DNA of 17,931 nt, from NCBI GenBank assembly GCA_965371225.1, contig CBDUXP010000075.1, forward strand, positions 1 through 17,931. The letters are read 5' to 3'. The translations under genes and the position numbers were made by a program. The stretch comes from CBDUXP01 sp965371225 [NCBI: uncultured bacterium] (GTDB lineage: Bacteria; Abyssobacteria; SURF-5; CBDUXP01). Of this stretch, positions 4,770 through 17,931 are shown piece after piece (the stretch's first letter is position 1; each line of letters opens with the position of its first letter). The notes under the pieces were generated by a model. It saw only the letters and a list, made by a program, of their open reading frames with translations. It searched no databases and was not told the DNA's origin.

Positions 4770-4876
4770 CCGAGCCCTGCCGAGATGACGAAGCGCCTGT
4801 GGACCCCCGCCTCAGGGCCGCCCACCGAAACCAGTAAGCGGCCCCGGGGACGCGGCGCGGCGACGGGGCAGTGATC

Positions 4877-6118
4877 ATGCAAGCGCAACGCAAGGTGTTC
4901 TTCCTCCTACTGTTCCTCTTGATACTGGTCGTGCTTGAGGGGACCGCGAAGGTGGTCTACGCGGTGCGGGAAGGGGGCTACGTCTCGACAGCCGAACTGT
5001 TCGCACGGAACTCGAACGAGTTCATTCGCGACCTCGAGCGCCCCGAGGACGACTGCACCTACCTCGACACGTTATATCCCCACCCATATCTGGCGTTCGT
5101 CCACCACGATACCCCCCCGTGTGGCATACGTAGCCAGTTAAACAGTCAAGGCCTCTTCGGGGAGGAGCTTCCCCTACAGCGGGATCCCGAGTACTTCACC
5201 ATTTTGCTTACCGGAGGGTCCGTCGGAGCGCAACTCGGCCAGGTGAATAATCCCGGCAGCCCCAAGCATCTCGAGGTATCGCTGAATGCGCGGTACCGCA
5301 GTCCGACCGGCAAACCGTTTCGCGTGTTCAACGGCGGGGACGGCGCCTGGAAGTATCCACAGCAGCTCATTCTCTTCGCGATCTACGGCCCGTTCGTCGA
5401 TGGTCTTGTGACTTTGGACGGCTACAACGAACATTCCGGCGTCAGGTTCGGTTCTCGAGATCGGATCGAGAAACCGGCGAACAATTTCATAGAGGTGAAC
5501 CCGCTCGCGAATTACAGCGTGGATGCCCTCGGCGGCGCGTGGGCCGTGAATCGCCTGCGTTCCGTCATACGCGGGACCCCGGTCGTCAAGCGATCGCATC
5601 TCGCCTACCTCCTTTTCCAGGCGGCGCGCGGCGCGTGGGCCACCGCGCTTGCCGATGTTGACGATCCCCTCCGTCAACGCCAGGCGTCCATGTTCACCCT
5701 CCCCGCCGAATGGGACGCCGAACAGGCGTGGCAATGGAACGTTGAACGCTACGCGGACTACATCCGCTCGATGGAGACGATGGGCAGCCGGCTGGGTGTG
5801 AAGACCGCCTTCTTTATCCAGCCGGCCCCGGCGTTCGGCAAGGTGTTAACCGACGAGGAGGCGGCGGTGGTCGGGCCACTGGACTATGCGGACTCCTACG
5901 TGGCGATGACGGGGCATCTACTGGCGCTACGCAGTGAAACGATCAATATCTTCAGCCTGCTCACCTTGCTTGAGGAGGTGGCGGACACGATCTACGCCGA
6001 CCACATACACTTTGAACGAGCCGGCCGTGGGTACACGCTGATGGCGGAACGGATGGCCACGGACATCGCGACCGCGTGGCAACTCGATGCGCACGACCCG
6101 GCTGCCGACACCGAATAG
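4877..6118 (+). CDS. Membrane-anchored SGNH/GDSL-like hydrolase or acyl-modifying enzyme
   Basis: 413 residues from ATG 4877. An in-frame GTG at 4871 is possible, but GGGG at 4865-4868 is better spaced for the ATG. A single N-terminal hydrophobic helix (about residues 7-20, VFFLLLFLLILVVL) implies an inner-membrane anchor with a periplasmic catalytic domain. SGNH blocks are visible: GGSVG with nucleophile S115, the block II glycine in NGGDG (152-156), block III DGYNEH with N184, and block V DHIH with D375 and H378, followed by the typical ERAGRGYTLMAERM. All four catalytic positions are present. Such proteins remove or transfer O-acetyl or other acyl groups on glycans. It lies 107 bp after the methyltransferase, last in the glycan operon. 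Substrate unknown. Confidence 0.78.
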   Translation: MQAQRKVFFLLLFLLILVVLEGTAKVVYAVREGGYVSTAELFARNSNEFIRDLERPEDDCTYLDTLYPHPYLAFVHHDTPPCGIRSQLNSQGLFGEELPLQRDPEYFTILLTGGSVGAQLGQVNNPGSPKHLEVSLNARYRSPTGKPFRVFNGGDGAWKYPQQLILFAIYGPFVDGLVTLDGYNEHSGVRFGSRDRIEKPANNFIEVNPLANYSVDALGGAWAVNRLRSVIRGTPVVKRSHLAYLLFQAARGAWATALADVDDPLRQRQASMFTLPAEWDAEQAWQWNVERYADYIRSMETMGSRLGVKTAFFIQPAPAFGKVLTDEEAAVVGPLDYADSYVAMTGHLLALRSETINIFSLLTLLEEVADTIYADHIHFERAGRGYTLMAERMATDIATAWQLDAHDPAADTE

Positions 6119-6262
6119 GTGCCTCGACCCGCACCGATAGACTTGCCCCCCTCGAGCGACCTCGCACGCGATCGGGGAAGCTGATTCTCGATCCAAATAG
6201 CGACACAAGCCCTGACTAGGCAACGACTTAGCCACAGCACAAATGCCTGTGCCGGGCGGGAC
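6119..6262. other. Intergenic region between glycan operon and TetR cassette
   Basis: About 144 bp with no convincing coding frame. A short inverted repeat GCACA-AATGCC-TGTGC (6237-6252) is present but has no T-tract, so I do not call a terminator. Beyond it the composition shifts abruptly to an AT-rich stretch (about 6263-6294) that holds the TetR promoter. Confidence 0.5.
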
Positions 6263-6291
6263 TTGACAATATTAAATTAACACTGTTAAAT
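6263..6291 (+). promoter_or_regulatory. Sigma-70-type promoter of the tetR-like gene
   Basis: A consensus -35 TTGACA (6263-6268) is followed after exactly 17 bp by TTAAAT (6286-6291), a good -10. The AT-rich block stands out sharply from the GC-rich surroundings. The predicted transcription start is about 6297-6300, which coincides with ATG 6299. The mRNA would therefore be leaderless. Confidence 0.72.
6277..6289. promoter_or_regulatory. Palindromic operator, probable TetR binding site
   Basis: TTAACA-C-TGTTAA is a perfect 13-bp palindrome. It lies in the spacer and overlaps the -10 hexamer of the promoter just upstream of the TetR gene. This size and placement are typical of self-regulating TetR-family operators, where bound repressor blocks RNA polymerase. 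The palindrome is seen directly; its recognition by the adjacent regulator is inference. Confidence 0.65.
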
Positions 6292-6298
6292 ATTGGGC

Positions 6299-6928
6299 AT
6301 GGCCAGGTTGGCGCTGACGGCGGAGCAGGTGGACGCGGGGCGGGCGGAGATCTGCCAGGCGGCGATGCGGGTGTTCGCCCGGGGCGGGATCGCGGCGGTG
6401 ACGCTGCGGGCCATCGCCAAGGAGCTGGGCTGGAGCTACACGACGCCTTACCGGTATTTCGCGAGTAAGGACGACATCATCGTGGCCCTGCGCACGGCGA
6501 CGTTTGCCCGGTTCGCTGATGTGCTGGAGGCGGCGATTGCGAGCGTGACCGACCCCGCGGCCGGTCTTGTCGTTCTGGTCCGCGCGTACACCGAGGCGGC
6601 CCTCGCCGACCCGGACGGTTACCGGTTGCTGCTGGACCTGCGCCAGGAAGACAGCAACGCGTTTCCCGAACTGGCGCGCCAGCGGCGGCGGGCGTTCGAG
6701 ACGTGCGTGCACACTGCCCGCGCGGCGCACGCGGCGGGACTGATCCCCGCGGACGCCGACGCAGAAACCGCGGCGCACGTGCTCTGGTCCGGCGTGCACG
6801 GGCTGGTGTCACTGCACCTGGCCGACCAACTGGTGATGACTCGCACGCTGGACGACTTGATCGAACCGCTGACCCAGACGCTGGTGGCAGGCACGCTCGC
6901 CCGCCGCGGCGAACCGTCGACGAACTAA
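6299..6928 (+). CDS. TetR/AcrR-family transcriptional regulator
   Basis: 209 residues from ATG 6299. An in-frame TTG at 6293 is rejected because it would precede the predicted transcription start. The N-terminal DNA-binding domain is canonical: a first helix around QAAMRVFARGG (20-30), then the helix-turn-helix TLRAIAKELGWSYTTPYRYF (35-54), followed by SKDDI. The rest is the all-helical ligand/dimerisation domain, with no recognisable subfamily signature. The repressor probably controls its own promoter through the 13-bp palindrome and, by readthrough, the two genes downstream, since only 21 bp separate it from the next gene and no terminator is visible. The ligand is unknown; a hydrophobic substrate of the downstream redox pair is plausible. 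Confidence 0.92.
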   Translation: MARLALTAEQVDAGRAEICQAAMRVFARGGIAAVTLRAIAKELGWSYTTPYRYFASKDDIIVALRTATFARFADVLEAAIASVTDPAAGLVVLVRAYTEAALADPDGYRLLLDLRQEDSNAFPELARQRRRAFETCVHTARAAHAAGLIPADADAETAAHVLWSGVHGLVSLHLADQLVMTRTLDDLIEPLTQTLVAGTLARRGEPSTN

Positions 6929-6936
6929 TCACATAC

Positions 6937-6941
6937 GGAGG
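6937..6941 (+). promoter_or_regulatory. Ribosome binding site GGAGG of the diiron-like gene
   Basis: GGAGG lies 8 bases before ATG 6950, in the short gap after the TetR stop. It is the strongest Shine-Dalgarno match of the cassette, in contrast to the leaderless first gene. The enzyme may thus be translated more efficiently than the repressor. Confidence 0.7.
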
Positions 6942-6949
6942 ACTGAACG

Positions 6950-7828
6950 ATGAAGACCACGCACGCCGAGACGCCGGATACGGGGATCACGATCCGCAAG
7001 CTGGACTTCGGCGTGCCGGAGGACGTCAACCCGCACTGGCACCCGGCCGAGCCCGAGTGGAGCCACATGGTGAACGGCGCGTCGCTCTGCATGCCCTACC
7101 TGGAGCCCTACCTGATCAAGGCGGTGAAGGCGGCGAAGCCGCACATCGCCGACCCCCAGCTGCTAACGGAGGTGGACGACTACATTGGCCAGGAGGCGCA
7201 CCACTACAAGCAGCACCGCCAGTTCAACGACATCCTTATTCGTCACGGCTACGACGAACTGCGGGACATCGAGCGGCGCATGGCGGATGACTACGCGCGC
7301 TTCCTGCGGGACAAGCCGCTCGCCTTCCACCTCGCCTACACCGCGGGGTTCGAGTCCATGGCCCTGGGTATCGGCCACTGGCTGGTACGTGACCGGGAAC
7401 GGCTGTTCGGCGGCGCGGACTCAAGCGTGTCGTCGCTGGTGCTGTGGCACTTCGTCGAGGAGATCGAACACAAGAACGTCGCGCTCGACGTGTACCGCGC
7501 GGTGTGCAGCAGCTATTGGTGCCGCATCCACGGCCTGTTCTTCGCCACGCTGCACGTGATCAAATACTCGCGCCAGGCGTACCAGGCGATGCTGAAGCAC
7601 GACGGGCTGTGGCGCAACCTGCGCAGCCGCTGGCGCCTGCAGAAGATGCTGCTGCGGTTCTTGGGCGCACTGGTGCCGCACATACTGCGCTGCTGCGTAC
7701 CCGGCCACGAGCCGCGGGACATCCCGAATCCCGCGTGGACCGACGCGTGGGTGGAACGCTACGAGGCGGACGGCGGGCGGCTCACGCGGCTGGACACGGC
7801 GCGCCTGGCGGCGGGTACGCCGGCATGA
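6950..7828 (+). CDS. PF10118-type 'metal-dependent hydrolase', probable ferritin-like diiron protein
   Basis: 292 residues from ATG 6950 with GGAGG 8 bases upstream. The overall sequence matches the family annotated as predicted metal-dependent hydrolases (COG3687/PF10118). The visible metal-ligand pattern is that of a diiron four-helix bundle: E52, then E82-x-x-H85 (GQEAHH), then E135 (GFESMA), then E171-x-x-H174 (VEEIEH). The 30- and 36-residue spacings within the pairs are close to those of ribonucleotide reductase R2. Diiron proteins of this kind usually activate oxygen (hydroxylation, epoxidation, N-oxidation, desaturation), so 'hydrolase' may be misleading. The C-terminal part is basic (WRNLRSRWRLQKMLLRFLG) and may touch the membrane. 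The stop overlaps the next start as ATGA. Reaction and substrate are unknown. Confidence 0.82.
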   Translation: MKTTHAETPDTGITIRKLDFGVPEDVNPHWHPAEPEWSHMVNGASLCMPYLEPYLIKAVKAAKPHIADPQLLTEVDDYIGQEAHHYKQHRQFNDILIRHGYDELRDIERRMADDYARFLRDKPLAFHLAYTAGFESMALGIGHWLVRDRERLFGGADSSVSSLVLWHFVEEIEHKNVALDVYRAVCSSYWCRIHGLFFATLHVIKYSRQAYQAMLKHDGLWRNLRSRWRLQKMLLRFLGALVPHILRCCVPGHEPRDIPNPAWTDAWVERYEADGGRLTRLDTARLAAGTPA

Positions 7829-8322
7829 GCGGGGGGACCATGGATGCGCGGCTGCAGCGGCTGATGATCGCACACGGGGGCATGGTCTTTTTCGGCGGGC
7901 TGATGGTGGGCTGGGGCTTTCTCTTTTTCCTCATGGGTGCAGTTTCCGTCTGGCCCATCCCCTGGCGGTTGGACGTGCAGTTGCCCGGCGACGTACGCGC
8001 GTGGCGCATGGCGCACATGGAGGGCATCCTCAACGGCCTCACCATGCTGGCCGTGGCGGGCATCTGGCATAACCTCACGCTCACCCCGCGCGCGCAGAAA
8101 TGGGTTGCCTACGGGCTGATCGTGACCGGGTGGGGCAATCTCATCGCCGCGACGCTGGGGCCCATCTTCGGCGGGCGCGGACTGGCCATCGGCGTCGGGT
8201 TCCATGAAGAAGGTGCCAACCACATCATGTTCTTCCTGTTCGCCATCTCCATCGTCACCATCATGACCGCGATGATCCTCATCATCCGCAACGCACTGTC
8301 CTCGGCCCAGGTGTCGGAGTAA
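7825..8322 (+). CDS. Four-helix membrane protein, styrene-oxide-isomerase-like
   Basis: 165 residues from ATG 7825, which overlaps the upstream TGA as ATGA. ATG 7840, preceded by a GGGGGGA, is an alternative start. Four hydrophobic helices are seen (about 13-38, 64-82, 92-112, 131-156). The pattern IAHGGMVFF, then RMAHMEGILNG, then GLIVTGWGN resembles bacterial styrene oxide isomerase (SOI), a small membrane enzyme that binds heme and converts epoxides to aldehydes. Aligned without gaps to the SOI sequence as I recall it, H64 matches the heme-ligand His58, N70 matches Asn64 and N105 matches Asn99. T101 and A109 replace Asp95 and the catalytic Tyr103. It may be a divergent isomerase, a heme redox partner, or another member of that fold. 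The homology is from memory and needs a profile search. Confidence 0.55.
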   Translation: MSGGTMDARLQRLMIAHGGMVFFGGLMVGWGFLFFLMGAVSVWPIPWRLDVQLPGDVRAWRMAHMEGILNGLTMLAVAGIWHNLTLTPRAQKWVAYGLIVTGWGNLIAATLGPIFGGRGLAIGVGFHEEGANHIMFFLFAISIVTIMTAMILIIRNALSSAQVSE

Positions 8323-8341
8323 TCCCCGGGCGACACCAGCT

Positions 8342-8381
8342 CACTCACGCGGCCGCTTGCCGGCGGGGCCGTGCCTGAGTG
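8342..8381. terminator. Imperfect hairpin between convergent genes, possible bidirectional terminator
   Basis: CACTCA (8342-8347) pairs with TGAGTG (8376-8381), with an inner CGGCC/GGCCG pairing inside it. The structure lies between two converging genes, where a shared terminator is expected. No T-tract follows on either strand, so function is uncertain. Confidence 0.35.
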
Positions 8382-8449
8382 CGCGCAGTTGCCAGCGGAA
8401 GTAAGCGAGCATTCGGGGGAGGTGCCACGGGCGCTTCGCAATCCGTTCC

Positions 8450-9058
8450 CTAAGGGTTGGCCCGCAGTTGCGCGTTCTCCGCCTCCAGCTCCGCAATGCG
8501 CGCCTTCAGACCGTGCACCGTGTCCGCCACTTCCTCGTCCGTGAACCGTGGAACGATGTGCTGGGGGCAATTCACGTCCCACGCTTCCACGCGGAAGCGG
8601 AATGCCCGCTCCGGAACACCACTATAGTCTGGGTCTGCGAGGGCGGCGAGCAGTGTGGGATCGTCCTCGATCACCTCGGCCCGGCCCCAGATCTTGATCC
8701 GGCGCCGGTTGGGGTAGTCCATCAGAAACATGAACGCCCGATCGTTCTCGCTCAGGTTCCCCATGGAGATGTACTGGCGGTTCCCGCGGAAGTCGGCGAA
8801 GGCTAACGTGTGTTCATCAATGACCTTCAGGAACCCCTTCGATCCGCCCCGGTGCTGGATATATGGGCGTCCGTCAGTGGTGGCCGTGCCGAAGTAGAAC
8901 GAATCCCGTTCGGCGATGAACGCCGCCAAATCGGGCGTGACTGTATCGGTCCACCCGCCGCGCTGTTCCATCTTGACGTAGCCGCTGCGCGAGCCGAGGC
9001 GTTCTTGGATGGCCTTCACGCTGGGGGTAAAGGCAATGTCGCTGATCGCTGCAGTCAT
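8450..9058 (-). CDS. Pyridoxamine 5'-phosphate oxidase-like FMN-binding protein
   Basis: 202 residues from ATG 9058. AAGGGA lies about 8 bases upstream, and the in-frame extension to 9202 is low-complexity. The split-barrel FMN-binding signature is clear: ERDSFYFGTATTDGRPYIQHR (about 50-70), GSKGFLKVIDE (72-82), DFRGNRQYISMGNLSEN (89-105), and later RRRIKIWGRAEV. This is the pattern of general PPOX-family flavoproteins (FMN or F420/heme-using relatives), not the PdxH enzyme itself. The C-terminal 30 residues (LKARIAELEAENAQLR) are a short coiled coil, suggesting oligomerisation or partner contact, which is unusual for the family. It is downstream of the symporter and the truncated CMD gene on the same strand. 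Substrate unknown. Confidence 0.85.
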   Translation of the reverse strand: MTAAISDIAFTPSVKAIQERLGSRSGYVKMEQRGGWTDTVTPDLAAFIAERDSFYFGTATTDGRPYIQHRGGSKGFLKVIDEHTLAFADFRGNRQYISMGNLSENDRAFMFLMDYPNRRRIKIWGRAEVIEDDPTLLAALADPDYSGVPERAFRFRVEAWDVNCPQHIVPRFTDEEVADTVHGLKARIAELEAENAQLRANP

Positions 9059-11275: not shown

Positions 11276-14200
11276 ATGCCTCTGAAGTCCCGCCGACCGG
11301 CTACGCCGCAAGTCGCAGCCACCGCATCCGCTCCTCCGCATCGCCAACCCGGCCGTGTGCACCTCGGGTGGTTCGTCCTGTTGTGCGCGTTGTGCATCAG
11401 CCTCGGCATGCCGGCCGCGGCCCAGATGCGAGCCACGCAGAGCAGCTCGCGCGAGACGCTGTTCGACCGAAGCGCGCACCGCGACTTCCTGAATAGCCTG
11501 GACGATGAAAGCCGCGAGCGTGCGGTCGTCCTCAAAGCACGGGTCGTCGTGCCGGGCGGTGGGGAACTCGCCTCGGATTCCGACGCGCCCCAACATCTCT
11601 ACGTGCAGACTACCCGCGTGCTGTCCGTGGACGACCGCGCTCACCTGTTGACGTTGGGTGTCGAAGTCCGCAACTACCTCGCGAACAGCACCTACGTAAT
11701 GGACTGCGGGCCCGGTGCCGTGTCCCTGCTGCTGGCGGACCCGCTCGTCGCCGGCCTCGCGAGTATCCAGCCCGAAGACAAGGTGACAGCCGCTTTGGGT
11801 TATCGCGCCACCGGGCGTGTACCGGCGGGCATGGCCCCGCTCGCGGACGCCCCGGTCCCGTACCGTGTCCTGTTGTACGAGGGGGTCCCGCTCCAGGAGG
11901 TGCGGGACGCGCTGACGGCCCTCGGCATCGCCTTTACGGAAGTCGAGCATGGGCAGCGCATGGCTGTGGAAGCCTCCCTGACACCCGACCAAGCCATGAG
12001 CCTTGCAACCCTTGACACCGTGGCGGCCCTCGACCGCGCGTCGCCGCCACGCGCGGTGCAAAACAGCAATGCCCAGGCGTACACCACCTCCGACCAAGCG
12101 CAGAGCGGCCCGTACAACCTCACGGGCGCCGGGGTGACGGTGCTCGTGCGCGACCAAAGCTTCCCGGCGCACACAGACTACAACTCTCGGACCACGATCA
12201 TCGATACCGCAGGCAAGGGAGTCGGTTCCCACCACACCCACGTGACCGGTACGGTCGCGGGCGACGGCTCCGGCAGTGCGCTCGCCGAAGGCATGGCGCC
12301 TGCGGCCACGATCGTCACGCACGAATTCAACGGTAATGACACCACGGAGATCGGCGGCGCGTTCATCGATTACGGCGCACAGCTCTCGAACCATTCCTAC
12401 GGCATTCCCAGCGGTTGGCAAGGCAGCGCCTTCTACATGTATTCCGGGTATGAGTTCGGCAACTATAACGCGATGTCGAACGAATGGGACGCGCTCATCT
12501 ACGACAACGATCTAATCATCTGCAAATCCGCCGGCAACGACCGCAACGATATGGCCGCCAGCGGGTCCCACACGCACGTGCCGGGGGGGGGCACGTGGAA
12601 CGATACCCACCCGAACGACGGTCCCTACAACTGCATCAACGAAGCGGCGCTCTCCAAGAACGTGATCACCGTGGGCGCGGTGGATCACGACGACAGCATG
12701 TCCAGCTTCAGTTCTTTCGGCCCCCCCGAAGACGGGCGGGTCAAACCGGATGTCGTCAGCGACGGCGTCAGCCTCTATAGCACGTACCCGGGTAACTCCT
12801 ATCAAGGCGGCTGGAGCGGCACGAGCATGTCCTCGCCGGCGGTCACGGGCAGCCTCGTGCTCTTCACCGAACGGTACAAGGCGCTGAACGGGGGCACCCC
12901 GCCGACCGCCGCCATGGCCAAGGCCTGCCTCCTCCACGGAGCGCGGGATCTCACACCTGCAGAAGACATCGGCACCTATGCCGGTTTCTACCGGGTCGGC
13001 CCGGATTACGCCACCGGCTTCGGCGCTGTGGACATCGTCAACAGCATCGACGCGATCGACAACATGTCGACAGGAGACGTGAGTCAGGGTGAGGTCGACA
13101 TCTACATGGTGACCATCGCCAGCCCCGCCACACCGCTCAAGGTGACGCTCGTGTGGACCGACCCCCCGGGCAGCACCATCGCCGCGACGGCCATCATCAA
13201 CGATCTCGACCTCACGGTCACCCGGCCCGATGCCTCCGTCGCGTATCCGTGGGTGCTCGACCCCTTAAGCCCCGGCAACGCGGCGACCACCGGCGTGAAT
13301 CTCGTCGATACCACCGAGCAGGTCGTCGACACCGCGCCCCCGGTCGGCACCTACACGATTCGCGTCACCGGCACGAGTGTCCCGACGGGGCCGCAGGCCT
13401 ATGCGCTCGTCATCACTGGCACCCTCTTCATCCCCCCCGCAACCGGCGTGACGCTGACGCCCGACGTGGTGAGCCCGCAGGAGATGGGGACGCCGGTGAC
13501 CTTCACGGCGGCGGGCCAGGGCGGGAGCGGCACGTACGAGTATGAATTCGCGCTCCAGGGCCCGGCCACTGGCGGTGTCATGACCGTGCAGCAGGCCTAC
13601 TCGACCATGGCCACCTGGACCTGGGACACGAGCCGCATCGTTGGGGACCATACCGTACAGGTGAACGTGCGGAGCGCAGGCACGGCGAGCCTAGTCGATG
13701 CCACGACGGCGGTGAACTACAGCATCGTTAGCGAGCCGCTCACCCTGACCCCGAGCCGACCGAGCCCGGGGATCGTCGGGTTCCCGACCGTCTGGACCGC
13801 TGCGGGTGGACCCGGCGCCGGGCCGTTCGAATACCGGTTCTGGAAGCAGGCCCCCGCCAGCGCGTTCGTCATGGTGCAGGACTTCGGCGTGGGAAGCACC
13901 TGGACCTGGACGCCGATCCTCGCCGACCTCGGCATTCATTCGCTTAAGGTCGACGCGCGCACCGTCGGGTCCGCCACAGTCACTACCGGCCCCACCCAGA
14001 ACTACACCATCGAGACGCCGCCGACGCCGCCGGGGCCCCCCGCAGGTGTCACCGTCCCCGCAACCGACATCGACGGCGCGTACACGATCATCTGGACCGC
14101 CGGTACGGGGCCGATCGACACGTATGAACTACAAGAGGCCACCGACGCGGCCTTCTCCGACGCGGCAACTGTGTACACCGGCGCGACGCTCTCGGCCGCC

Positions 14201-17200
14201 ATCAGCGGGAAGACCGTCGGCGACTACTACTACCGCGTCCGCGCGGTCAATACGGGGGGGACGAGCGCCTATACCGCGGGCGCAAACCCGTGCTCGGTTA
14301 CGCTCCCACCGCCACCGTCGCTGACCCCGAACGCGCCGAGTCCCGGCGCGGTCGGGACGCCCGTCGTGTGGACCGCCGCGGGTGGGTTCGGTGCGGGACC
14401 ATTCGAGTATCGTTTTTCGTGGCAGACCACGGGCGGGGTGTGGTTGATGGTCCAGAACTTCGGCGTGGGTACTACGTGGACTTGGACCCCGAGTGCCGGC
14501 GACGTGGGCACGCATGCGTTCAAGATCGAAGTGCGGTTGGTCGGCTCCGCCACGGCCGCCGTTGGGCCGACCGTGAGTTACGACATCGTTGGTTCGGCGG
14601 CGCAATCACGCTGCCGCGCCCTGGAGCGCGCCAGCGTGGCGTCCGACGGCACCCAGGCGAACAAGGACACCTTTAGCGCAGGCATCAGTGCCGATGGCCG
14701 CTTCGTGGCGTTTGATTCGTGGGCGACCAATCTCGTGCCGGGCGACACCAACGCGAGGTGGGACGTCTTTGTGTTTGACCGGGAGACCGGCATCACCGAG
14801 CGCGTGAGCGTGACCTCCGCCGGTACCGAATCAGACCTGGGCGGCTTCTACCCGGTGATTAGCGGGGATGGCCGGTTCGTCGCCTTCGATTCCTTCTCGA
14901 CCGACCTCGTCCCGGGGGACACCAACGGCGTGCGGGACGGATTCATCCACGACCGCCAAACCGGGACCACCGAGCGGATCACCGTGGCGACCGACGGGAC
15001 AGAAGGGGACGCCTACAGTTACGTGTATTCCATCAGCCTGGACGGCCGGTTCGTCTCCTTCGCCTCGTGGGCGACCAATCTCGTCCCCGGCGACACTAAT
15101 GGGACCGGCGACGTGTTTGTGCGCGACCGCCTCATGGGGACCACCGAGCGTATCAGCGTCGTCTCCGACGGGACGGAAGCCAACGGCTGGAGCGATATCT
15201 CCTCCATAAGCGCGGATGGCCGGTATGTGGCGTTTGATTCCATCGCCGACAATCTCGTCCCCGGCGACACGAACGGCCTCTGGGATGCGTTCGTCCACGA
15301 CCGCCGCACCGGAATGACGGAACGCATCAGCGTCGCCTCCGACGGGACCGAGGGCATTTACAACAGCGGCTGGCCCACCATGAGCGTGGACGGCCGATTC
15401 GTGGCCTTCGATTCCGCCGCTGACAACCTCGTCCCCGACGACTCGAACAACCAGTGGGACGTGTTCGTCCACGACCGCCAAACGGGGACCACCGAGCGCG
15501 TCACCGTGGCGTCTGACGGCACTCAGGGGACAAGTGTGAGCTATGGCATCTCCATCAGTGGGGACGGGCGTTTTGCGGCCTTCCAGTCCCTGGCCACCAA
15601 CCTGGTGCCCGGCGACACAAACTTCGCGTGGGACGTGTTTGTGCACGATCGCGCCACGGGCGAGACCGTCCGCGTCAGCGTCGCGCCCGATGGGACGCAG
15701 GGGGATTGGGATACGTCCGCTTTCGTCCAGACGGACAACCTGCTCAGCGATGACGGCCTCGTGCTGGCGCTCCAGACCAGCGCGACGAACCTCCTGCCGG
15801 GGGATGGGAACGGCGCGAACGATACGTTGGTCTTCGGCAACTGCCTGGCGACAGACTGTGGCCTGACGGTGGTCGCCCCGCGCGCCGGGGACACGTGGGC
15901 GCGCGGCGACGAGGTGACGGTCTTCTGGACCGGCGCCGTCCCCTCAGGCACCGACGTACAAGTGGATCTCTACCGGGGGGGCGCCCAGGTAGCCACGATT
16001 GCCGGACCCATGTCGAACGTCGGATTTGCGACATGGACGGTGCCCGCGGGTCTGACGGCCACGGCCAATTACTCGGTGAAGGTGAAGACGGTGGACGACG
16101 CCTGCATCGTTTCGTCAGCCGGCGCCCTGACCATTGTGGATCCGGCCACCGGCGTGACGCTGACGCCTGACTTGGCCAGCCCACAGGAGATGGACACGAC
16201 CGTGACGTTCACCGCCGCGGGCCAAGGTGGCAGTGGCAGTTACGAGTACGAATTCTCATTGCAGGGCCCGGGCACGGGCGGCGCCATGATCGTGCAGCGG
16301 CCGTATGCCACAAGCCCCACCTGGGCGTGGACCCCGGGTGTCGCTGATGTGGGCGCGAACACCGTGCGCGTGCGCGTGCACAACCTCGGCTCCAGCGCCA
16401 TAGAACACGCGTCCACCGCACTCGCCTACACGATCGACTATCCACCCCCACCGGGTCCCCCCGGAAGCGTGACCGTGCCGCTGACTGACGACGATGGCAC
16501 GTTCACCATCACGTGGACCGCCGGGACCGGCGTCATCACCGGGTACGAGTTGCAGGAAGCGACGGATCCGGGCTTCGCGGGCGCAGCGACCGTGTACGCC
16601 GGCGCGACCATGAGCGTCACGCTGATGGGTCGAGCCGACGGCACGTACTATTACCGTGCGCGCGCCACCAACGCAGGGGGCGGCGGCACCTATACTGCCG
16701 GCGCCAACGGCTGCACCGTCACCCTACCCCCGCCCCCATCGGCGCCCGGCAGCGTCTCGGTCCCACTCACGGACGCGGACGGAGGGTTTACCGTTGCGTG
16801 GACGCCGGCCACCGGTCTGGTCGACACATACGAGGTGCAGGAATCCACGGACCCAGGATTCGCGGGAGCGACGACCGTGTACACCGGCGCGACCTTGAGC
16901 GCCACGATTTCCGGCAAGGCGGACGGAACCTATTACTACCGCGTCCGTGCGCGCAACGTGGGCGGCGCCGGCCCGTACACCGCCGCCCCCAATGCGTGCA
17001 CCGTCACGCTGGTGGTGCAGTGGGTGACCCTCACGCCGGACGCGCCGTCGCCGGGCGTGGTCGGAGTACCGGTCGTGTGGACGGCCGAGGGCGGCCCCGG
17101 TACAGGACCGCACCTGTATCGCTTCCTTGTCAAAACTGTCGGAGGCCTCTGGACGATCGCGCAGAACTACGACAGCAGCCCCACGTGGACGTGGACCCCG

Positions 17201-17931
17201 ACGGCGGGCGACTACACGGTTTCGGTGAACGCCCGCGAGGTGGCCGGGTTCGACATCCAAGCACCTTCGTCTATCCCGTACACGATCACCGAACCACTGG
17301 TTCCGTTCTCGTTGACGCCGAGCGTGCCCAGTCCGGGGGTGGTGGGGACCGCCGTGACGTTCGTGGCGGCGGGCGGCCCGAGTGCGGGGCCGTTCCAGTA
17401 CAGCTTCTGGCTGACGGGCCCGAGCACGGGGCAGGCGTGGAAACTGGTCCAGAACTACAGCACGAACCCGTGGGTCTGGACGCTCCCCGCCAGTGCCGTG
17501 GGCACCTCCACCATCCGCTGCGCGATCAAGGACCTGAGCACCGGCGCCACCAGTTCGGCCCCCGACCAGGTCTATGCCGTCGTCCCCCCGCCCGCACCGG
17601 GGGCGCCGGGCAGCCTGGCCGGGCCGGCGACGGATGAGGACGGCACCTATACGCTCACGTGGACCGCCGGGAGCGGGACGATCGACGCGTACGACCTGCA
17701 AGAGGCCACGCAGGCGGACTTCAGCGACGCGGGCACGGTGGCCACGCCGGCGGGGCTCACGTATACGCGGACCGGGCAGAGCACCGGGACGTACCACTAC
17801 CGGGTGCGCGCGTGCAACACGGGCGGGTGTAGCGCCTACACCGCGGGCGGCAACAGTGTGGTGGTCACCATCCCGGCGTTCTCGTTGACGCCGAGCGTGC
17901 CCAGTCCGGGGGTGGTGGGGACCGCCGTGAC
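11276..17931 (+). CDS. Giant secreted subtilisin-like (S8, KP-43 type) protease with repeat mosaic, 3' end outside window
   Basis: One frame stays open from ATG 11276 to the window end (at least 2218 codons). An in-frame TGA at 11267-11269 fixes the upstream limit. Residues 1-50 are a signal peptide with a long n-region, core WFVLLCALCISLGM and cleavage near PAAAQ. A prodomain runs to about 265. The S8 catalytic domain (about 265-595) has D293 (LVRDQSF), H319 (HHTHVTGTVAG), oxyanion N421 (SAGND) and S517 (GTSMSSPAVTG). A jelly-roll (601-715) with LKVTLVWTDPPG and NDLDLTV is typical of KP-43-like proteases. Then come beta-sandwich modules, fibronectin-III-like modules, a seven-bladed propeller, a Kre9/KNH-like domain (nt 15863-16138; GDTWARGDEVTVFWT) and more modules. 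It probably acts outside the cell on proteins or surfaces. C-terminal anchoring or sorting signals would lie beyond the window. Confidence 0.93.
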   Translation, partial: MPLKSRRPATPQVAATASAPPHRQPGRVHLGWFVLLCALCISLGMPAAAQMRATQSSSRETLFDRSAHRDFLNSLDDESRERAVVLKARVVVPGGGELASDSDAPQHLYVQTTRVLSVDDRAHLLTLGVEVRNYLANSTYVMDCGPGAVSLLLADPLVAGLASIQPEDKVTAALGYRATGRVPAGMAPLADAPVPYRVLLYEGVPLQEVRDALTALGIAFTEVEHGQRMAVEASLTPDQAMSLATLDTVAALDRASPPRAVQNSNAQAYTTSDQAQSGPYNLTGAGVTVLVRDQSFPAHTDYNSRTTIIDTAGKGVGSHHTHVTGTVAGDGSGSALAEGMAPAATIVTHEFNGNDTTEIGGAFIDYGAQLSNHSYGIPSGWQGSAFYMYSGYEFGNYNAMSNEWDALIYDNDLIICKSAGNDRNDMAASGSHTHVPGGGTWNDTHPNDGPYNCINEAALSKNVITVGAVDHDDSMSSFSSFGPPEDGRVKPDVVSDGVSLYSTYPGNSYQGGWSGTSMSSPAVTGSLVLFTERYKALNGGTPPTAAMAKACLLHGARDLTPAEDIGTYAGFYRVGPDYATGFGAVDIVNSIDAIDNMSTGDVSQGEVDIYMVTIASPATPLKVTLVWTDPPGSTIAATAIINDLDLTVTRPDASVAYPWVLDPLSPGNAATTGVNLVDTTEQVVDTAPPVGTYTIRVTGTSVPTGPQAYALVITGTLFIPPATGVTLTPDVVSPQEMGTPVTFTAAGQGGSGTYEYEFALQGPATGGVMTVQQAYSTMATWTWDTSRIVGDHTVQVNVRSAGTASLVDATTAVNYSIVSEPLTLTPSRPSPGIVGFPTVWTAAGGPGAGPFEYRFWKQAPASAFVMVQDFGVGSTWTWTPILADLGIHSLKVDARTVGSATVTTGPTQNYTIETPPTPPGPPAGVTVPATDIDGAYTIIWTAGTGPIDTYELQEATDAAFSDAATVYTGATLSAAISGKTVGDYYYRVRAVNTGGTSAYTAGANPCSVTLPPPPSLTPNAPSPGAVGTPVVWTAAGGFGAGPFEYRFSWQTTGGVWLMVQNFGVGTTWTWTPSAGDVGTHAFKIEVRLVGSATAAVGPTVSYDIVGSAAQSRCRALERASVASDGTQANKDTFSAGISADGRFVAFDSWATNLVPGDTNARWDVFVFDRETGITERVSVTSAGTESDLGGFYPVISGDGRFVAFDSFSTDLVPGDTNGVRDGFIHDRQTGTTERITVATDGTEGDAYSYVYSISLDGRFVSFASWATNLVPGDTNGTGDVFVRDRLMGTTERISVVSDGTEANGWSDISSISADGRYVAFDSIADNLVPGDTNGLWDAFVHDRRTGMTERISVASDGTEGIYNSGWPTMSVDGRFVAFDSAADNLVPDDSNNQWDVFVHDRQTGTTERVTVASDGTQGTSVSYGISISGDGRFAAFQSLATNLVPGDTNFAWDVFVHDRATGETVRVSVAPDGTQGDWDTSAFVQTDNLLSDDGLVLALQTSATNLLPGDGNGANDTLVFGNCLATDCGLTVVAPRAGDTWARGDEVTVFWTGAVPSGTDVQVDLYRGGAQVATIAGPMSNVGFATWTVPAGLTATANYSVKVKTVDDACIVSSAGALTIVDPATGVTLTPDLASPQEMDTTVTFTAAGQGGSGSYEYEFSLQGPGTGGAMIVQRPYATSPTWAWTPGVADVGANTVRVRVHNLGSSAIEHASTALAYTIDYPPPPGPPGSVTVPLTDDDGTFTITWTAGTGVITGYELQEATDPGFAGAATVYAGATMSVTLMGRADGTYYYRARATNAGGGGTYTAGANGCTVTLPPPPSAPGSVSVPLTDADGGFTVAWTPATGLVDTYEVQESTDPGFAGATTVYTGATLSATISGKADGTYYYRVRARNVGGAGPYTAAPNACTVTLVVQWVTLTPDAPSPGVVGVPVVWTAEGGPGTGPHLYRFLVKTVGGLWTIAQNYDSSPTWTWTPTAGDYTVSVNAREVAGFDIQAPSSIPYTITEPLVPFSLTPSVPSPGVVGTAVTFVAAGGPSAGPFQYSFWLTGPSTGQAWKLVQNYSTNPWVWTLPASAVGTSTIRCAIKDLSTGATSSAPDQVYAVVPPPAPGAPGSLAGPATDEDGTYTLTWTAGSGTIDAYDLQEATQADFSDAGTVATPAGLTYTRTGQSTGTYHYRVRACNTGGCSAYTAGGNSVVVTIPAFSLTPSVPSPGVVGTAV
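13442..14590 (+). repeat. First block of protease modules: A1-A2-FN3-A3
   Basis: Within the protease, two module types of roughly 90-100 residues alternate. Type A has LTP...SP, then VTFTAAG or VWTAAG, then GPFEYRF, then TWTWTP, and ends in Y-x-I. Copies are A1 13442-13729, A2 13736-14014 and A3 14318-14590. The other type (14015-14305) is fibronectin-III-like: PPGPPAGVTVP, TYELQEATD, DYYYRVRAVNTGG. Both are probably beta-sandwich spacers or ligand-binding stalks. I cannot name a Pfam family for type A with certainty. Confidence 0.75.
14612..15859 (+). repeat. Seven-bladed beta-propeller repeat with DxNxxxD loops
   Basis: Seven copies of a unit with (S/T)DGT, then SxDGRFVAF, then ATNLVPGDTN, then DVFVHDRxTG, then TERVSV. 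The Asp of the GDTN motif (first base of its codon) occurs at 14744, 14918, 15092, 15266, 15440, 15614 and 15803. The spacing is 174 bp (58 residues) five times, then 189 bp. Every copy keeps a D-x-N-x-x-x-D loop, as in calcium-binding loops. The unit resembles TolB/PD40-type propeller blades. Seven blades would form a closed propeller. A Cys (C1113) at the start and two Cys near the end might clamp it. Confidence 0.85.
17304..17358 (+). repeat. Direct repeat, copy 1 (55 bp)
   Basis: Identical at every base to 17877-17931, 573 bp (191 codons) downstream. It encodes FSLTPSVPSPGVVGTAV at the start of module A6. The period corresponds to one A plus one FN3 module. Confidence 0.95.
17877..17931 (+). 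repeat. Direct repeat, copy 2 (55 bp, reaches the window end)
   Basis: Identical to 17304-17358 up to the last base of the window, so the true repeat may be longer. It begins module A7 and suggests that the A6-FN3 unit has been recently duplicated in tandem. Confidence 0.95.

Follow-up and report, generated by a model that had tools for sequence, protein, structure and literature searches.

A TetR-linked gene pair encoding a predicted diiron protein of family PF10118 and a styrene oxide isomerase-like membrane protein: a candidate two-step oxidation module

What do a PF10118 protein and a membrane protein resembling styrene oxide isomerase (SOI) do together in one TetR-linked cassette? The question arises from a cassette within positions 6299–8322 of a 17,931-nucleotide (nt) stretch of DNA ("the window": contig CBDUXP010000075.1 of assembly GCA_965371225.1, forward strand). 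The observations below lend good support to the module, to its conservation and to the palindrome dedicated to it; we tentatively read the cassette, with slightly less than even confidence, as a self-regulated two-step module of a diiron oxygenase and an SOI-type heme protein. Its features are:

6263..6289, + strand: putative operator, the 27-bp palindrome TTGACAATATTAAATTAACACTGTTAA, 9 nt upstream of the TetR start
6299..6928, + strand: TetR-family regulator, 209 aa, with TetR_N and TetR_C_33 domains
6937..6941, + strand: GGAGG in the sequence, the likely ribosome-binding site of the PF10118 gene
6950..7828, + strand: PF10118 protein, 292 aa, predicted ferritin-like diiron oxygenase/oxidase
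7825..8322, + strand: SOI-like four-helix membrane protein, 165 aa, predicted heme b protein

The initial annotation had described a compact cassette of these three genes, and the layout holds as first given: coordinates, a 21-nt gap between the TetR and PF10118 genes, within which the GGAGG lies, and an ATGA overlap (7825–7828) of the PF10118 stop with the SOI-like start. An alternative start for the SOI-like gene is the in-frame ATG at 7840, which lies closer to where several homologues begin and would leave a gap of 11 nt. The regulator matched Pfam TetR_N (E = 5e-13; 49 bits against a cut-off of 24) and TetR_C_33 (E = 1e-14), and the second protein, at 201 bits against a gathering cut-off of 33.2, belongs to PF10118 (Metal_hydrol).

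Scanning genome contigs with the membrane protein alone recovered 56 loci, with L051 and the near-duplicate L055 counted. At 47 of them a PF10118 gene stood no more than 1 kb from the SOI-like gene, and in 44 cases the two shared a strand and their domains were separated by 100 nt or less; because L050 and L051 represent the same contig, the count without repeats is 46/55. (The two ends of that contig carry the same cassette at the same positions in opposite directions, probably through assembly inversion or duplication.) Three pairs were divergent, all at Erythrobacteraceae loci; nine SOI-like loci were without PF10118, L018 among them at a contig end. Hosts of the pair include Alpha- and Gammaproteobacteria, Binatota, Myxococcota and an Acidimicrobiales metagenome-assembled genome, and the four-base start/stop overlap recurred in 23 of the 45 same-strand pairs, window included. 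Eighteen of the genomes with these loci contained 68 PF10118 and 49 SOI-like matches, of which 20 and 20, respectively, lay within 1.5 kb of a match to the other family; both families are thus larger than the pair.

Samples of two classes were then compared. Seven of 274 genomes in the class of genome G007 had SOI-like matches (nine in total), and all five PF10118 genes above 360 bits with the subfamily profile adjoined one, as did no other PF10118 gene among the matches listed (both compared by eye). Among 289 genomes in the class of G001, 11 of 14 PF10118 genes above the same score adjoined an SOI-like gene, one of the three exceptions (in G489) ending 158 bases before the contig end, and 16 of 36 SOI-like matches adjoined PF10118; 25 of 59 PF10118 and 26 of 36 SOI-like rows of this class were compared by program and the rest by eye. 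Among the sampled genomes are the centre genomes and also G005, which came from the locus scan; without them, genome co-occurrence was 4/4 and 12/12 (Fisher p = 7e-8 and 4e-17), one of the twelve, G489, being represented by no more than a weak and partial SOI-like match (27.6 bits). A sister PF10118 group (253–269 bits) adjoined an SOI-like gene in four of six cases, with the SOI-like gene upstream each time and once on the opposite strand. SOI-like matches occurred in 4 of 148 genomes of a phylum sample around G010, where three new loci (L058–L060) had no PF10118 gene in the short stretch around the SOI-like gene.

The 49 subfamily rows formed one branch of a quick PF10118 tree (SH-like approximate likelihood ratio support, SH-aLRT, 95; 71 of 80 rows used; midpoint root only), all of them adjacent to an SOI-like gene; most were sampled via that gene, and the tree therefore shows subfamily identity and not an unbiased adjacency rate. 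The four-row sister group in the tree had one adjacent row (L048), and 18 other PF10118 genes of the same genomes fell outside the branch, none within 1.5 kb of an SOI-like match. Rows dropped were L051, L055, L057 and L089 (duplicate or truncated) and L029, L040, L081 and L083 (fragments). The SOI-like tree (without L051, L055, L057, L061–L063 and L089) was less resolved and placed the window row on a long branch. Distances between PF10118 proteins and between their SOI-like partners were correlated (r = 0.82 over 43 pairs, uncorrected for shared ancestry and without L001, L029, L040, L051 and L055; shuffled maximum 0.19). This PF10118 subfamily is genetically locked to SOI-like proteins. The pairing picked out in the initial annotation is clearly conserved across genomes, and the locus counts, class samples and co-occurrence reject both a chance neighbourhood and synteny of a single lineage. 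Spread on plasmids was likewise rejected: the plasmid collection gave no SOI-like match, and its PF10118 relatives (77 records) had <34% identity in the 30 listed. Of these records 54 are from Acinetobacter, and 27 of the 30 listed are annotated as metal-dependent hydrolase.

What, then, is the PF10118 partner? Its candidate metal site runs E52 ... Q81-E82-x-x-H85 ... E135 ... H167-x-x-E170-E171-x-x-H174. The full diiron ligand set seen in it at the outset amounts to seven ligands (E52, E82, H85, E135, H167, E171, H174), each the same residue or a gap in 75 of 75 aligned PF10118 rows; Q81 likewise, with one Lys at E170 and one Ala at E173. The 75 rows, counted without L051, L055, L057 and L089, were split by score into 52, including two sister-group rows (L048 6070 and L052 3859), and 23, including one subfamily fragment (L040). 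The likeness to AurF and CmlI was drawn by motif from published sites, AurF itself not being in the alignment. The DnfA site is E88/E123/H126/E182/H209/E213/H216 and is said to be identical to those of AurF and CmlI (PMC9478400), and the AzoC site is E102/E137/H140/E198/H225/E229/H232 (PMC6783550); ligand order and the ExxH and HxxxExxH spacings of the PF10118 protein match both.

A structure model of the PF10118 protein (predicted local distance difference test, pLDDT, 93.8) had CmlI as its top Foldseek match, a weak one (E = 0.022), with TenA, heme oxygenase and designed bundles also among the lower-scoring matches. The top VIA-align matches were ribonucleotide reductase R2, CmlI, R2lox and AurF (Z about 12, root-mean-square deviation (rmsd) 4–6 Å), and all 50 rows listed were R2, R2-like oxidase, AurF/CmlI or methane monooxygenase chains. 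From motif and fold we predict a ferritin-like diiron oxygenase or oxidase, the conserved ligand set being stronger evidence for diiron than the fold matches. "Metal-dependent hydrolase" is probably a misnomer, because the conserved residues are a diiron-carboxylate set ordered and spaced as in the published sites, and this motif suggests that the name may be wrong family-wide. With that set conserved and the top fold matches being ferritin-like dimetal proteins, a metal-dependent hydrolase was set aside as a working idea. A PF10118 protein has also been placed among protease candidates (PMC8960859). PF10118 matches numbered up to nine in one of the 18 genomes.

An AurF-like protein might instead oxidise an amine, with the heme protein dehydrating or rearranging the N-oxygenated product, a step for which heme aldoxime dehydratases are a model. 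A set of three His and four carboxylates has been called largely unique to the N-oxygenases, but the PF10118 motif is QExxH where that of AurF is DExxH, and QExxH, followed by HxxDExxH, is found in the C–H-halogenating CylC family (PMC12101540). Some SOI-like proteins elsewhere, moreover, sit near styrene monooxygenase genes, and we regard N-oxygenation as very improbable.

The membrane protein had no Pfam match, and its resemblance to SOI, first suggested from the letters of the window, was borne out by homology and fold. The NCBIfam StyC model (NF045734) scored 53.2 bits (E = 3.2e-14), below the equivalog cut-off of 150; phmmer matched two solved SOIs (E = 1.8e-10 and 1.4e-8), and a profile of 52 relatives found the same two among solved sequences (1.6e-34 and 5.8e-34) and none other up to E = 1. 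For the structure model (pLDDT 92.7) the sole Foldseek match at E ≤ 0.001 was SOI 8pnu_A (E = 7e-6), with which it shares the four-helix fold (VIA-align Z 16.8, rmsd 2.8 Å, 153 residues aligned). The next fold matches were heme-copper oxidase subunit I and MAPEG enzymes (Z about 7–11), possibly through a common helical arrangement only.

In SOI, heme b is ligated by His58 at the trimer interface; N64A and D95A impair activity, and N99A and Y103A abolish it (PMC11374702). The window protein retains the equivalents of H58 (H64), R112 (R118), N64 (N70) and N99 (N105), and has T101 for D95 and A109 for Y103, so that the network-1 residues are incomplete. The main set for residue counts was 51 PF10118-adjacent rows, with the window and near-duplicates L051 and L055 counted; the residue counts as a whole leave aside the subfamily pairs of G664, G580, G560, G456, G686, G558 and G662. 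His58 is kept in 51/51, Arg112 in 49/51 (one His, one gap) and Asp95 in 0/51. Heme binding is expected throughout the SOI-like proteins, because the axial His is conserved, and the heme content of the module is predicted from this His and from homology; the substrate-positioning network, judged by the aligned residues, varies and is mostly unlike that of SOI. Among adjacent SOI-like proteins fetched later, Tyr103 is retained in 7 of 12; four of the twelve (L109–L112) were chosen to test this very point, and L109 and L110 look closely related; Asn99 and Tyr103 are both retained in all four SOI-like proteins beside the sister PF10118 group. With Tyr103 and Asp95 replaced, plain SOI activity was not accepted as the sole reading for the window.

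Tandem SOI-like genes stand behind PF10118 at L003 (8521–8991), L010 (8520–8990) and L117 (1175–2185); at L003 and L010 one copy is without Tyr103 and one has it. Mixed trimers are conceivable by analogy, because SOI's site is built from two subunits.

The residue pattern could also mean that the heme protein tethers the diiron enzyme to the membrane or passes it electrons, for instance from quinol, with no isomerisation. Most of the main set has lost the catalytic SOI residues and kept the heme-holding ones, the PF10118 and SOI-like genes are tightly coupled, and SOI has itself been suggested to act as an anchor (PMC12502698). Electron transfer fits less well: an Arg (R111 of Rhodococcus SOI, equated here with R112) is thought to contact a heme propionate (PMC12502698) in a loop placed periplasmic (PMC11374702), and the PF10118 protein has no signal peptide by eye, so direct transfer looks hard; one heme species of Rhodococcus SOI resisted chemical reduction (PMC12502698). 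Some linked SOI-like proteins, furthermore, keep Tyr103 and Asn99. No positive evidence was found for the dedicated heme redox partner that the initial annotation had offered as an option, and we consider an anchor or redox role unlikely, if by no means negligible.

How is the cassette controlled? The 27-bp palindrome, whose left end resembles a −35 hexamer, precedes the TetR gene in the window and at L004, L009, L011, L014, L020, L026 and L030, where TetR homologues (E = 1e-45 to 2e-32) lie upstream of the SOI-like gene. Its idealised, symmetrised form is TTGACAGTGTTAAATTAACACTGTCAA, and the matrix consensus over 28 bases is TTGACACTGTTAAATTAACACTGTTAAA. The eight sites scored 30–39 with the matrix, against a maximum of 17.4 at unrelated positions in 1.008 Mb. 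A ninth palindrome, held out of matrix building, scored 32 at L088, upstream of a TetR-like open reading frame (ORF; judged by eye) that is followed by PF10118 and an SOI-like gene. The window gave one site, against none in 200 shuffles of it. By whole-genome pattern search the palindrome occurred once each in G002, G011 and G012 and twice in G006, only at these loci; it was not found in the whole genome of G014 at three mismatches, and a reversed-pattern control gave no matches over the five genomes. A promoter scan of window positions 6100–8500 gave no sigma-70-like site above threshold. TetR control, as first proposed, agrees with the TetR domains and the conserved upstream palindrome; the regulator is probably an autorepressor of the cassette, and it appears dedicated to this operon, because the palindrome is confined to these loci in four of the five genomes.

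The two G006 loci with the palindrome are L009, with TetR and an SOI-like protein without Tyr103 and no PF10118, and L088, with the TetR-like ORF, PF10118 and an SOI-like protein keeping Tyr103. SOI-like genes in L009 lie at 6689–7183 and 7977–8459; counted with that of L088 they make three in these G006 loci, the third, divergent one standing next to the first.

Neighbours of the pair were scanned at loci with PF10118 only (128 of 144 neighbours taken, ten near-duplicate or short loci skipped) and include nine short-chain, four acyl-CoA and two aldehyde dehydrogenases, together with AraC, MEDS/HTH and other TetR regulators in different loci. Variety of regulators beside the pair and a regulon that looks confined would both suit detoxification, in which TetR senses a toxic hydrophobic compound (a terpene, alkene or aromatic) and the pair disarms it, feeding no catabolic pathway. 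The dehydrogenases, however, are catabolic neighbours, and the idea overlaps with the two-step module; taken by itself it seems rather improbable. Around SOI-like genes without PF10118 (60 of 120 neighbours taken, ten more scanned directly, nine loci left out), matches to the substrate-binding domain of StyA came from four of the 60, and matches to a flavin reductase from four. Other such SOI-like genes lie beside an FAD monooxygenase-type protein (L028), GST-domain proteins (L034, L091) and, at L102, a linalool dehydratase/isomerase (PF18566), an association that points another branch of SOI-like proteins towards terpene metabolism. SOI-type proteins thus recur in the vicinity of oxygenases, and PF10118 appears to be a second type of partner oxygenase.

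Pairing of an oxygenase with SOI is itself already known as StyAB-StyC, and by analogy another oxygenase would take part here. As in that system, a (predicted) oxygenase is encoded with an SOI-type heme membrane protein, homologous by sequence and fold; unlike it, the window has PF10118 where StyAB is a two-component flavin monooxygenase, Tyr103 and Asp95 are replaced, TetR lies alongside, and the cassette holds no aldehyde dehydrogenase. The N-oxygenases AurF, CmlI and DnfA share the order E, ExxH, E, HxxxExxH and three His with four carboxylates, and the fold matches CmlI and AurF; they differ in DExxH and HxxDExxH as against QExxH and HxxEExxH, and PF10118, partnered with a heme membrane protein, has no significant sequence similarity to them that we could find. 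With the CylC/NocO dimetal halogenases, compared by motif, PF10118 shares QExxH followed by Hxx[D/E]ExxH, having E for D in the second motif; CylC is predicted to have six ligands (3 His/3 Glu) and stands in a cyanobacterial biosynthetic context. The initial annotation knew of no described system with the PF10118/SOI-like pairing, and no description was found in PMC full text either, a collection that subscription-only papers are mostly outside.

How might the two-step module work? A hydrophobic compound would bind TetR, which would leave the operator; the cytosolic PF10118 enzyme, of AurF/CmlI/CylC type, would activate O2 and oxygenate the inducing compound or a relative. An SOI-like trimer, with ferric heme b ligated by H64 where the subunits meet, would take up the product in the membrane and rearrange it by Lewis-acid catalysis, as SOI does with the StyAB product. 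Epoxide chemistry is plausible by this analogy, although members without Tyr103, the window's among them, probably handle something other than a styrene-oxide-like epoxide, or else position it through another group. A sequential reaction is favoured chiefly because SOI-type proteins recurrently sit near oxygenases, and a simple epoxide isomerase is doubted because the tyrosine is lost.

Several results weigh against such a module. Tyr103 is retained in just 3 of the 51 main-set rows, all second copies (L003, L010, L048), and Asn99 in four (those three and the window). The PF10118 protein had no sequence match to a solved diiron enzyme, as single sequence or as profile, the profile giving one match among PDB sequences up to E = 10, not a diiron enzyme, and its fold score (Z about 12) is below 13, a value attainable by helical bundles through a common arrangement. 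SOI-like genes with no PF10118 close by numbered 29/49 in the 18 genomes and 4/9 and 20/36 in the class samples. No electron-donor family stood among the 25 neighbour families listed of 126, which also favours the anchor or redox role. The two-step idea of the initial annotation is strengthened in its conserved pairing and SOI homology, whereas epoxide isomerisation is not established, Tyr103 being gone in most of the main set.

Elsewhere in the window, a very long ORF (11276–17929, reaching the window end) has a subtilase domain followed by fibronectin III and Ig-like matches. A 415-aa ORF at 4871–6118 had no Pfam or NCBIfam match at E = 1; it contains a GGSVG stretch, which we take to be reminiscent of SGNH hydrolases.

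With this reading, a family known from annotation only as "predicted metal-dependent hydrolase" gains a function that can be tested, and the range of SOI-type heme proteins would extend past styrene degradation. SOI relatives lacking the catalytic tyrosine become available as a natural series, and the palindrome of the cassette could serve as the basis of a reporter for finding the inducer, and perhaps the substrate. A wider proposal is possible but doubtful: PF10118 would be a large, misnamed family of AurF/CylC-type dimetal oxygenases, one branch of which joins SOI-like heme b trimers in a new module docked at the membrane, with a diiron oxygenase and a heme Lewis-acid isomerase, that oxygenates and rearranges membrane-soluble hydrocarbons, and members without Tyr103 would carry out a heme rearrangement other than SOI's Meinwald reaction. 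If the two-step module is real, it would be a new biocatalytic cascade, one O2-dependent step followed by a redox-neutral rearrangement, encoded in about 1.4 kb.

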